DNA from: an uncultured Bacteroidota bacterium
GTDB lineage: Bacteria > Bacteroidota > Bacteroidia > 2-12-FULL-35-15
NCBI GenBank assembly: GCA_903847205.1
Contig: CAINDA010000033.1
Location: 1 to 41,413 of the forward strand
Length of the DNA: 41,413 nucleotides
Direction of reading: 5' to 3'
Below, in pieces: positions 9,845-41,413 of this stretch. Numbering within the stretch: position 1 is the first letter of the stretch; the number at the start of each line of letters is the position of its first letter. A program made the position numbers and the translations under genes. A model generated the notes under the pieces. That model saw only the letters and a program-made list of their open reading frames with translations, made no database searches and was not told the origin of the DNA.

Positions 9845-10899
9845 ATATATTATATGGAGTACCCGGAGAAGGCATGGGCCATGCTACCCGAAGCAAAGTA
9901 GTAATTGATTTTCTTCTGAAGGAAGGACATAATGTACATGCAGTATCATGCGACAGGGCTTACCAGTTCTTAGTTAAATCATATCCCGGCAGGGTGCATG
10001 AAATAAAAGGTTTTCACTTCGCCTATAAAGATTCAGAGATCTCTAAAATGAGAACTTTTCTTCTGAATTTTAAAACAGCACCCAAAAACCTCTTGTTTAA
10101 TTTTGCAGAATATTTGAAACTAAAAATGGATTTTCATCCTGATTTAGTGATAACAGATTTCGAATCGTTTGCATATTATTTTGCAAAGCTGCACCGCATC
10201 CCAATCATCAGCATTGATAATATGCAGGTGATGGACCGCTGCAAGCTCGACATCAAAATTTCTAAAGAAGAAAAAGGAAACTTCAGAATGGCTAAAGCTA
10301 TTGTAAAAGCTAAGGTTCCCGGCTGCGATCATTATCTTATATCCAGCTTTTTTAATGCAGCAATCCGTAAAAAAAACACAAGCATTGTTCCTCTCATTGT
10401 GAGGGACGGCATTTTAAATGCAAAACCAAGCCGTCAAAACCATATCCTTGTTTACCAAACCACCAGCACCTTTGCGGAGATAAATAAAATATTTCAGCAG
10501 CTGCCTGATATAACGTTTTATGTTTACGGCTTTAACAAAGATGAACTTTGCGGAAATGTGATTTTTAAATCCTTCAGTGAAGAAAATTTTGTGAATGACC
10601 TTGCCGGAGCATCCGCTGTGATAGCCAACGGAGGCTATTCGTTTATCAGCGAAGCCATTTATTTAAAAAAGCCTATCTATTCATTCCCTATCAAAAATCA
10701 ATTTGAGCAGTTAATGAATGCTTCTTACATTGATAAAATGGGTTATGGTAAATATTCCGAAGAGCTGGATATAAACAGCTTAAAGGACTTTTTAAAACAT
10801 CTTGATACGTTCAAAGAAAATTTATCGAAGTACAAGCAGGATGGAAATAAGGAATTGTTTGAAGTTTTAAAAGAGAAAATTAAGGAAGTGTGTTCCTGA
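9841..10899 (+). CDS. MJ1255-type glycosyltransferase (GT-B fold)
   Basis: This 352-residue protein starts MNILYGVPGEGMGHATRS, the hallmark N terminus of the MJ1255/VC2487 family of UDP-glycosyltransferase-like proteins (GT28/MurG-like GT-B fold). The glycine-rich GEGMGHATR loop corresponds to the nucleotide/acceptor loop of MurG-type enzymes. In the C-terminal half, ASAVIANGGYSFISEAIYLKKPIYSFPI (about 259-286) matches the donor-binding GG-x-x-x-x-x-E signature. It is probably a peripheral inner-membrane enzyme that adds a sugar to a lipid or surface glycan precursor. Donor and acceptor are unknown. It overlaps the PAP2 phosphatase gene by 4 bp, so translation is probably coupled and the two may act on one lipid-linked substrate. 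The gene ends 4 bp before the convergent YwbE gene. Confidence 0.82.
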   Translation: MNILYGVPGEGMGHATRSKVVIDFLLKEGHNVHAVSCDRAYQFLVKSYPGRVHEIKGFHFAYKDSEISKMRTFLLNFKTAPKNLLFNFAEYLKLKMDFHPDLVITDFESFAYYFAKLHRIPIISIDNMQVMDRCKLDIKISKEEKGNFRMAKAIVKAKVPGCDHYLISSFFNAAIRKKNTSIVPLIVRDGILNAKPSRQNHILVYQTTSTFAEINKIFQQLPDITFYVYGFNKDELCGNVIFKSFSEENFVNDLAGASAVIANGGYSFISEAIYLKKPIYSFPIKNQFEQLMNASYIDKMGYGKYSEELDINSLKDFLKHLDTFKENLSKYKQDGNKELFEVLKEKIKEVCS

Positions 10900-19183: not shown

Positions 19184-26587
<7,404 letters not shown>

Positions 26588-38134: not shown

Positions 38135-38136
38135 GT

Positions 38137-38184
38137 TTTAAGTTTAAAGTTCAAAGTTTAAAGTTGGAAGTTGGAAAGTTTAAA
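38137..38184. repeat. 7-bp AAGTTNN satellite downstream of cinA
   Basis: AAGTTTA, AAGTTCA, AAGTTTA, AAGTTGG and AAGTTGG run at 7-bp spacing from 38140, beginning three bases after the cinA stop. This is the complement of the AACTTTN type at 14438-14462. Confidence 0.6.
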
Positions 38185-40066: not shown

Positions 40067-40228
40067 GTTTAAAGTTTGAAACAAAATTTGTTTAAAGTTA
40101 AAAAGTTGGAAAGTTTGAAAGTTCTGTGTTTTTATGCTCCTAACATTGAAGCTTCCAACTTTCCAACTTTCCAACTTTCAAACTTTGAACTTTCAAACGT
40201 TGAACTTTCAAACTATAAAAACTTTAAA
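40067..40228. repeat. Inverted pair of 7-bp satellites
   Basis: AAGTTNN-type DNA (40067-40124) is followed, after a 25-bp gap, by AACTTTN-type DNA (40150-40228). The two halves can pair in several registers to make a long hairpin. It lies immediately 3' of the 318-residue protein gene and could act as a transcription barrier. Confidence 0.58.
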
Positions 40229-40233
40229 CTCCC

Positions 40234-41190
40234 TTAAACATGGTGCAATTCAACATTTAGATTTGTTGTTTTACCGCTGATAACATTTACTGAAATAATT
40301 TTTGTAAGCACACCTTCTCCGCTGAATACAGCATTATAAGTACCTGCTTTAATACTCTTCAGGCTTACAACGCCGCTGATTGTGCTTACAGCGCTTTTAT
40401 CCAATTCTGTTATATACATTTTAATTCCGGCAATAGGGGAGACTGTTTCAGCACCTGGGGCAAGGGCTGTAATATTTGCGGCAATGCCGGTAAAATGAGT
40501 ACCGGTAACTGTAACATGCATGGCTGCCGCAAAAAGTTCAACTAATCTTGATTTAGAATTGCTGAAATGACTGAATAAAATGTCATACATATTTTTTATT
40601 GCCTTATCAGCAGTGGCAATGTATAAAGGCAGTCTGTCAGTTGATACAGCTTTTATGGTTTGAATTGCGACTATCGGCTTTACTTGAATCTTTTGATATT
40701 CCTGAATAGCTTCTGCCATTTCAGTTATATTATCAGCAGAAATATTATTTAAAATACCGTCTGGATTAGTTAGAGCATCGTATCTGTTTTCTTTCATTGC
40801 ATGCAGCAATCCCTCGGCGTACTTAATTGCCTTCTGTTTGGGTGCTGCAAAAATATATGTATAAGAACGATCTAATACTGCTGAAAGAGTTATGTTTTCT
40901 TTACGTTCGGCTTTTATGCGGGCAATGGCTGCATATTTTATAATACATGAAGCCATTGCCGATTTTACTTCTAATGCCTGACTGCCCGTAACATTTGTGA
41001 AGCCTAACTGAATATCTAATGCCTCTGATATAGACTGATAGGCCTTATCGAAGATTGCTTTTTCCTGATCATAATCCGAAAGAACGTCGGGTGCGAAGAT
41101 GGGAAGGGTGCATAATACATCAGCATGATCGATATTATATTTTTTTATATGATCATAGGAATCAAATTTACCTCTTTGTCTGTTTTTCAT
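40234..41190 (-). CDS. Uncharacterised 318-residue protein with PEGA-like C-terminal domain
   Basis: This protein has no signal peptide or membrane span. Residues 1-230 are largely helical (YDQEKAIFDKAYQSISEALDI, EVKSAMASCIIKYAAIARIKAERKENI, DNITEMAEAIQEYQKIQVKPIVAIQTIK) and I recognise no named domain. Residues about 240-318 look like a small carboxypeptidase-regulatory or PEGA-like beta-sandwich: SPIAGIKMYITELDKSAVSTISGVVSLKSIKAGTYNAVFSGEGV, with a GxY turn and a final IISVNVISGKTTNLNVEL strand. The start MKNRQRGKFDSYDHIKKY is the first Met; TTTTTC precedes the gene without an evident ribosome site, usual in this phylum. Its 5' side carries an exact six-copy 21-bp repeat array, the most striking feature around it. 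Function is unknown. Confidence 0.68.
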   Translation of the reverse strand: MKNRQRGKFDSYDHIKKYNIDHADVLCTLPIFAPDVLSDYDQEKAIFDKAYQSISEALDIQLGFTNVTGSQALEVKSAMASCIIKYAAIARIKAERKENITLSAVLDRSYTYIFAAPKQKAIKYAEGLLHAMKENRYDALTNPDGILNNISADNITEMAEAIQEYQKIQVKPIVAIQTIKAVSTDRLPLYIATADKAIKNMYDILFSHFSNSKSRLVELFAAAMHVTVTGTHFTGIAANITALAPGAETVSPIAGIKMYITELDKSAVSTISGVVSLKSIKAGTYNAVFSGEGVLTKIISVNVISGKTTNLNVELHHV

Positions 41191-41236
41191 GGCTCTTTTG
41201 TATTTAATGATTCATCTATTTGATGATTTTACGATG

Positions 41237-41362
41237 CTTATATATAAATGTTTAATATTTACGGTAAAATTTATATCACTTACATTTAAATATTCGATAC
41301 CTACATTGAAATTTTTAATACTTACATTAAAAATTGTAATACTTACTAAGTAAATTACAATA
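41237..41362. repeat. Six-unit 21-bp exact-period array upstream of the 318-residue protein gene
   Basis: Units start at 41237, 41258, 41279, 41300, 41321 and 41342, each exactly 21 bases with no spacer. Most begin CTTAC and end AATA or a close variant; the best conserved positions are CTTACATT at the start, AAA in the middle and ATA at the end. Sequence differs between units but the period never slips. Twenty-one bases is two helical turns, so every unit presents the same face of the helix. The array lies 47 bases before the ATG at 41190 and downstream of a candidate -7 box. Confidence 0.75.
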
Positions 41363-41370
41363 GTTGAATG

Positions 41371-41378
41371 CAAATGTA
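41371..41378 (-). promoter_or_regulatory. Candidate -7 box for the 318-residue protein gene
   Basis: On the minus strand this reads TACATTTG, a perfect TAnnTTTG. It lies just upstream of the 21-bp array, so the array would be in the transcribed leader (about 170 bases). No TTG at 19 bases is seen and the surroundings are AT-rich, so chance is possible. Confidence 0.35.
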
Positions 41379-41413
41379 TAATTATTATATTTTAAAATAT
41401 TATAATTACAATA

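Follow-up and report, generated by a model that had tools for sequence, protein, structure and literature searches.

For most of the bacterial cis-elements known so far, recognition is by sequence. Iterons, tandem direct repeats spaced by about two helical turns, lie beside the gene of a Rep protein and serve it as conserved binding sites on replicons, and eukaryotic satellites combine a fixed period set by the nucleosome with free sequence, concerted evolution and higher-order repeats. In Porphyromonas gingivalis, the BrickBuilt MITE forms a 23-nt head-to-tail intergenic array at 19 loci of one strain; it is described as having one unit sequence, a MITE-like structure with terminal inverted repeats, promoter activity and a limited host range (PMC4596501). 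Variable non-coding intergenic tandem repeats are described from lake Planctomycetota, in a passage that states no fixed period or gene association (PMC9426551).

Here we describe arrays of 21-bp units, beginning with one in the window, i.e. the whole stretch of 41,413 nucleotides that was analysed, which is the entire contig C33 of an uncultured Bacteroidota genome (5.49 Mb, 72 contigs). Like BrickBuilt, these arrays are found in Bacteroidota, are intergenic, have units of about two helical turns without spacers, and occur at many loci near genes; unlike BrickBuilt as described, they have locus-specific units, a period of 21, and an association with two gene families across phyla (PMC4596501). 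As with plasmid iterons, direct repeats follow one another at a distance of about two turns, here beside the gene of a candidate binding protein; their units, in contrast, are sequence-free, and a genome carries many of them. Among the weak matches of the 318-aa protein encoded behind the array in the window, there is no initiator family. Fixed period, free sequence, concerted evolution and higher-order repeats are shared with eukaryotic satellite DNA (cf. PMC8122249), from which the arrays differ in being bacterial, short (~100–570 bp, 5–27 units), spaced by two helical turns rather than by the nucleosome, and placed before genes. With the lake Planctomycetota repeats they share being non-coding, variable, intergenic and from environmental bacteria. 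In searches of the open-access literature, we recognised no description of these arrays.

The array in the window

The features of the locus are as follows.

41227..41413, no strand: part of the 21-bp array in the window, eight full units and one partial unit, cut at the contig end
41237..41362, no strand: the six units of the earlier note, in 21-bp register with no slip
41371..41378, minus strand: TACATTTG box within the array, with a predicted promoter role only
41212..41373, minus strand: 53-aa open frame across the array, rejected as coding
40234..41190, minus strand: gene of 318 aa behind the array, start codon at 41190, with a probably helical N-terminal part

An earlier note, made from the sequence alone, had reported six contiguous 21-bp units without a slip, and this was borne out: lag-21 identity is 0.66 for 41237–41362, and 2000 dinucleotide shuffles reach at most 0.56 at any lag from 8 to 42. 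TRF finds a repeat at 41246–41346 with a period of 21, 4.8 copies, 71% matches and 0% indels. The array extends past 41362, where the note had placed its end; the units run to 41413, the last base of the contig, and then into contig C34, the end of which shares an exact 24-bp overlap with the array end, in register. Joined on the strength of the overlap and the register, the two parts make an array of ~15 units of 21 bp (315 bp), of which ~130 bp lie past the 24-bp overlap. Its lag-21 identity is 0.565 (maximum 0.486 at any lag from 10 to 44 in 2000 Markov nulls), and the identity between units stays flat with distance (0.54–0.58 at multiples of 21, from 21 to 147). At the C34 end (L003 1524–1530), the shared 24 bp are followed by GATCGG, exactly where the array breaks the assembly; this is presumably leftover adapter sequence.

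The note had also placed the array in the mRNA leader in case the TACATTTG box is the promoter. Because this minus-strand box sits inside the array, with units on both sides of it, the array cannot lie wholly in the leader; TAnnTTTG shows no preferred distance upstream of 143 related genes and no promoter enrichment. The array ends ~35–50 bp before the start codon, which is unusual, as the 3' end of the arrays collected below (n = 133) lies a median of 274 bp before it. Using a 42-bp profile of the units, we clearly found this array alone in its own genome (other places have E-values of 0.23 or worse); among the weak places, L036 lies within an array of a different unit, and L032 and L041 are near period-21 repeats.

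The window contains other repeats as well: a ~4 kb run of 9-bp-based repeats (GTTGAACCA-like; by eye collagen-like G-x-T on the minus strand) at 21876–26191, and short 7–8-bp spacer repeats of the AACTTTC/GTTTAAA type at 40094–40230 and 38135–38184.

The gene behind the array and its family

The 318-aa protein (pI 8.3) has a weak CarboxypepD_reg-like Pfam match under the gathering score at its C-terminus (residues 250–315), a C-terminal match to one PHROG of unknown function, and a weak partial PADLOC match to PDC-S49 (E 4e-4, residues 43–205). Among the other proteins given to PADLOC, L015 has a weak REase_II match (0.017), and L273 and L230 have none. Helices are suggested by a low-confidence single-sequence model only (pLDDT 33), and the family profile has no match among PDB sequences.

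We called an array where lag identity reached 0.55 over 84 comparisons, a rule that was set after first sight and left unchanged for later sets. Distant homologues of the window protein were found in 7 of 59 genomes by protein search, and the family (window-type) in 15 of 295 genomes by its own profile. A periodicity scan of the flanks showed clear 21-bp arrays at all five same-genus loci outside the own genome, with a different unit at each. By the rule, no array is found at the own-genome paralogue on C56, which is 51% identical and alignable only from residue 79 on; two weak matches from other families, L010 (321 bp upstream only) and L011, are also without array. The full window-type set has 20 places besides the window, one of which was dropped for short upstream DNA; an array with a period of 20–22 bp is found upstream of 13 of the 19 testable loci, and the other six have none by the rule. 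A fourteenth locus, L314, reaches 0.76 at lag 21, second to lag 14. The window protein had no relative in a scan of named genomes.

A second family with upstream arrays

A second array-associated family, with a helical domain and fibronectin III (fn3-type), was reached via L064/L109, the neighbour of one array, and is found in 42 of the 295 sampled genomes of the class by protein-only searches. We took 93 genes, of which 90 have at least 400 bp upstream (the other three were dropped); 60 further places were picked blind to the upstream DNA, with contig-start places skipped, and L111 (15-copy array), L114 (weak), L113 (upstream cut), and L118 and L119 (fragments) were excluded from the 93. The best lag between 12 and 48 is 20–22 or 40–44 in 80 of the 90 upstream regions, with identity of at least 0.55 in 70 of them; other lags reach this identity in four, and 20 genes have no array by the rule. 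Because L109 (own C45) came to notice through its array, under the label L064, before it was used as query, we removed it and quote 69/89.

The association extends to named genomes (best 80 of 109 loci, four dropped for short upstream DNA; MAG labels as deposited). There, arrays lie upstream of 64 of the 76 testable fn3-type genes, and downstream of only 2 of 72; 12 of the 76 have no upstream array by the rule. The loci with array are from Bacteroidota (48/57), Verrucomicrobiota (14/17), Methylococcales (1/1) and Ignavibacteria (1/1), the last two carriers being single MAGs. The two fn3-type sets overlap by at least 10 common loci. Many genomes are MAGs, in which arrays at contig ends may be collapsed; isolates with fn3-type loci and arrays are Sphingobacterium, Lacibacter, Ginsengibacter and Limnovirga. 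Among controls, 36 of 689 ORFs (at least 150 aa) have an upstream array by the rule, and seven of these (L015, L016, L017, L018, L064, L066 and L081) are related to the two families or to the L018-type gene. ORFs with at least 350 bp of upstream spacer in family-bearing genomes have arrays in 14 of 62 cases, or 12 of 60 without two family members.

A basic isoelectric point is common among the fn3-type proteins (median pI 9.06 over 171 sequences, duplicates included). Their model (pLDDT 96) has helices and a fibronectin III fold, and its listed PDB matches cover the fn3 domain only (residues ~110–203). Profile comparison detected no homology between the window-type and fn3-type families (probability 0.2); as far as the weak window-type data go, the two are alike in architecture and not in detectable sequence. 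Pfam and NCBIfam give nothing solid beyond the Ig-like end, with one weak NCBIfam match (NF033596) in one of eight members. One fn3-type protein has no relative in plasmid and phage collections, and PHROGs gives matches to families of phage tail proteins for the fn3 parts of L243 and L260. In eight Verrucomicrobiota loci (L243, L260, L266, L275, L278, L282, L289 and L302), the fn3-type gene is followed by a member of the same recurrent small protein family, and a downstream partner in Bacteroidota is common to two locus pairs only, L261/L270 and L305/L307 (77 named loci in all). One fn3-type gene copy is broken, with its 8.8-unit array still there (L117/L118; G000:C52:76653–77272), and L078, the third fn3-type gene in the sampled stretches, has an array directly behind it.

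Arrays away from the two families

We counted 21 arrays with a period of 20–22 bp (or multiples) in 680 kb from five family-bearing genomes, and two in 620 kb from seven same-genus genomes where the fn3-type family was not found; for other periods, there are 19 arrays in 700 kb and 10 in 620 kb, respectively. Without L057 (A-rich, seen as L041; may be coding), the contrast of 21 and 2 has p = 1.6e-4. The L068 stretch, fetched for its known array, is left out, hence 21 in 680 kb and not 23 in 700 kb. Also outside the count are L081 (known array), three small array-free stretches from G002, G005 and G016, and ten stretches that belong to other families. Two of these ten carry arrays: a 42-bp one in L100, from the family-bearing genome G038, and one of 14/21/28 bp in L107, from G055, which has no family match. 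The commonest TRF period is 21 (23 of 86 rows with at least 3 copies and a period of at least 10; 925 kb, homologue loci included). The L068 array (10280–10586) lies before a 173-aa protein without Pfam match that is HEAT-like by eye.

Of the 23 arrays in sampled stretches, 21 are not upstream of either family, and many lie beside other genes. Together with the 12 of 60 other ORFs with long spacers, this indicates that no single gene family has the array to itself, and array origin may be selfish or mutational. The earlier note had held that arrays in unrelated positions would speak against its idea; such arrays exist and in part do speak against it.

Period and unit sequence

Pooling all sets gives 171 upstream regions (at least 10 loci are present twice), 133 of which have an array by a combined-lag rule, with a period of 21 in 115, 22 in 10 and 20 in 8, and a median of 10 units. 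The mean period is 21.02 bp (sd 0.38), exactly 21.0 in 98 of 120 arrays; periods of 41 and 62 bp and higher-order periods of 42/63 bp occur too. The 22-bp arrays have G+C-rich units (0.60, compared to 0.40 in 21-bp arrays, p 2e-4), which may be a clade effect; this is also the direction expected if the period tracks the helical repeat. They are:

22-bp arrays, G+C-rich units: L138, L144, L172, L174, L258, L269, L273, L276, L288, L308

Rather than one unit at many loci, as in BrickBuilt, the 133 arrays have 124 distinct unit consensus sequences; nine occur twice, and in each case a named-genome locus repeats a locus of the 295-genome sample. Unit similarity equals that of a shuffled null (mean 0.47) when protein identity is below 60%, and is 0.57–0.68 at 60–97%. 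Variation within the unit is clustered (one cycle per unit, z 7.3; two cycles, z 5.9), as a core plus linker would give. Two units compared with viral contigs, a very small test, had no exact match, and captured viral DNA was dropped as their source.

These results also bear on what the earlier note had proposed about mechanism. Intrinsic bending is not supported as a general one by the unit sequences, with A-tracts in 58 of 133 units (49.8 expected; no general excess) and unit G+C ranging over 10–81%, and a single sequence-specific regulator is unlikely, as units differ at almost every locus. The proposal that a fixed period with drifting sequence points to helical phasing is well supported: the period persists in species and paralogues whose units are unrelated, change is largely by substitution without indels, as described below, and there is no codon signal.

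Changes between related loci

Six aligned pairs of related loci were compared for indels. The arrays of paralogues L151/L123 (18 units, 378 bp) differ by 107 substitutions and no indel, and largely the same unit positions differ throughout; the arrays are 72% identical and both flanks ~96%. Between two Sphingobacterium species, the orthologous arrays of L305/L307 differ by 60 substitutions and no indel, and the spacer that follows has six indel events. In these best-preserved pairs, divergence is concerted and indel-free. L235/L238 has no indels across the whole aligned region and is therefore uninformative. Because indels are found in the other three pairs, i.e. four in L199/L206 (1, 1, 1 and 10 bp), one of 1 bp in L198/L206 and one of 42 bp (two whole units) in L198/L199, array length is well kept though not inviolable. 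Paralogues L280/L284 share 83% identity across the gene and its flank as far as the array edge, where unrelated units take over in the two loci. Loss of the period in close relatives, which the earlier note named as evidence against it, was seen in none of the pairs examined, while some family genes have no detectable array.

What the arrays may be

Spacing is constant at two turns and sequence is free, and neither a codon signal nor a general A-tract pattern is present. This fits a non-coding, helically phased upstream platform in which spacing is maintained and sequence is not, and we give this reading about an even chance of being right. We infer selection for helical phase and binding of a protein; which protein binds, and to what effect, is speculative.

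The rival that survives best, which we consider unlikely, is that of neutral or selfish minisatellites, in which replication or recombination makes two-turn tandem copies that pile up in long, weakly constrained spacers before fast-evolving families. The sequence-free, homogenised units, the 42/63-bp higher-order periods and the 21 of 23 arrays away from the two families are all as it would have them. It does not readily explain why arrays depend on family-bearing genomes, being few in same-genus genomes without the fn3-type family, or why they lie upstream, in strong excess both over the downstream side of the same genes and over other long-spacer genes; nor does it account for the equal unit number after heavy divergence, or for the array edge of L280/L284, which is at the same place despite unrelated units. 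The arrays found elsewhere keep this rival alive.

An operator array read by a sequence-specific regulator is rather improbable in our view; the regulator would co-evolve with each array and might be the adjacent protein repressing its own gene, as in iteron-like autoregulation. This rival would suit the clustering of conserved positions in the unit, the basic fn3-type proteins and the dyad-like units of some arrays (e.g. TACTG....CAGTA in most units of Sphingobacterium L305/L307), and stems exceed all 20 column-order shuffles in 24 of 84 arrays (29%). Units are unrelated, however, even in the paralogues with 83% identical flank and gene, so that specificity would need to be rebuilt repeatedly at each locus. 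Taken together, the arrays have a weakly palindromic consensus (12% at p ≤ 0.05), and with stems in a minority the palindrome was rejected as a general unit feature.

Some of the same data bear on the idea that the array works as RNA, i.e. as hairpins or repeats of 21 nt transcribed in a row, which we regard as very unlikely. In some arrays each unit forms a stem, and between the two species of L305/L307 the changes look compensatory (TACTG/CAGTA to TATCG/CGATA); hairpin pairing exceeds all 20 column permutations in 21% of 84 arrays; this is a minority, most arrays having no such stem in the permutation test, and covariation can be mimicked by 42-bp higher-order repeats. Finally, a heptapeptide-repeat protein encoded by the array is largely refuted and scarcely credible: 21 is a multiple of three and a stop-free frame exists in 80 of 92 period-21 arrays (67.6 expected, a mild excess left unexplained), but variation is not codon-phased (3 of 81 arrays at p ≤ 0.05, ~4 expected, on which ground the 53-aa frame was rejected too), the frame is broken by 20-, 22-, 41- and 62-bp periods, and three units of the joined window array have in-frame stops (frame shown).

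If the arrays are helically phased platforms, each unit would span two turns of B-DNA, and a bound factor would meet the same helix face 5–27 times. Spacing and the fact of repetition would be kept, with unit sequence a local matter, turned over by concerted change through gene conversion or unequal exchange. Most likely, a protein would assemble along one face of the array and set the expression or the chromosome state of the adjacent gene. Candidates for that protein are a general DNA-organising factor and the often basic product of the adjacent gene, with its helical and Ig-like parts; the basic pI of the fn3-type proteins and their confidently modelled helices and fibronectin III fold make DNA binding possible. 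A wider reading, tentative and on balance doubtful, is a "satellite chromatin" of several phyla, in which DNA would be read by helical period and repetition and not by its letters: two-turn arrays would be generated, homogenised and held at near-constant length before the genes of their cognate proteins. These proteins, with helical and Ig-like parts and from at least two families unrelated in sequence, would form a phased nucleoprotein filament on them, and in trans on orphan arrays elsewhere in the genome too.

Across great evolutionary distance, the property conserved here is the two-turn helical spacing, the sequence being nearly free, and it is tied to abundant uncharacterised protein families. 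The arrays provide a handle on multi-copy gene families that have no solid Pfam or NCBIfam match beyond the Ig-like end, and the system is bench-testable because isolates of Sphingobacterium, Lacibacter, Ginsengibacter and Limnovirga carry it. If it is true that spacing is what is read, this would be a new principle of bacterial DNA recognition.
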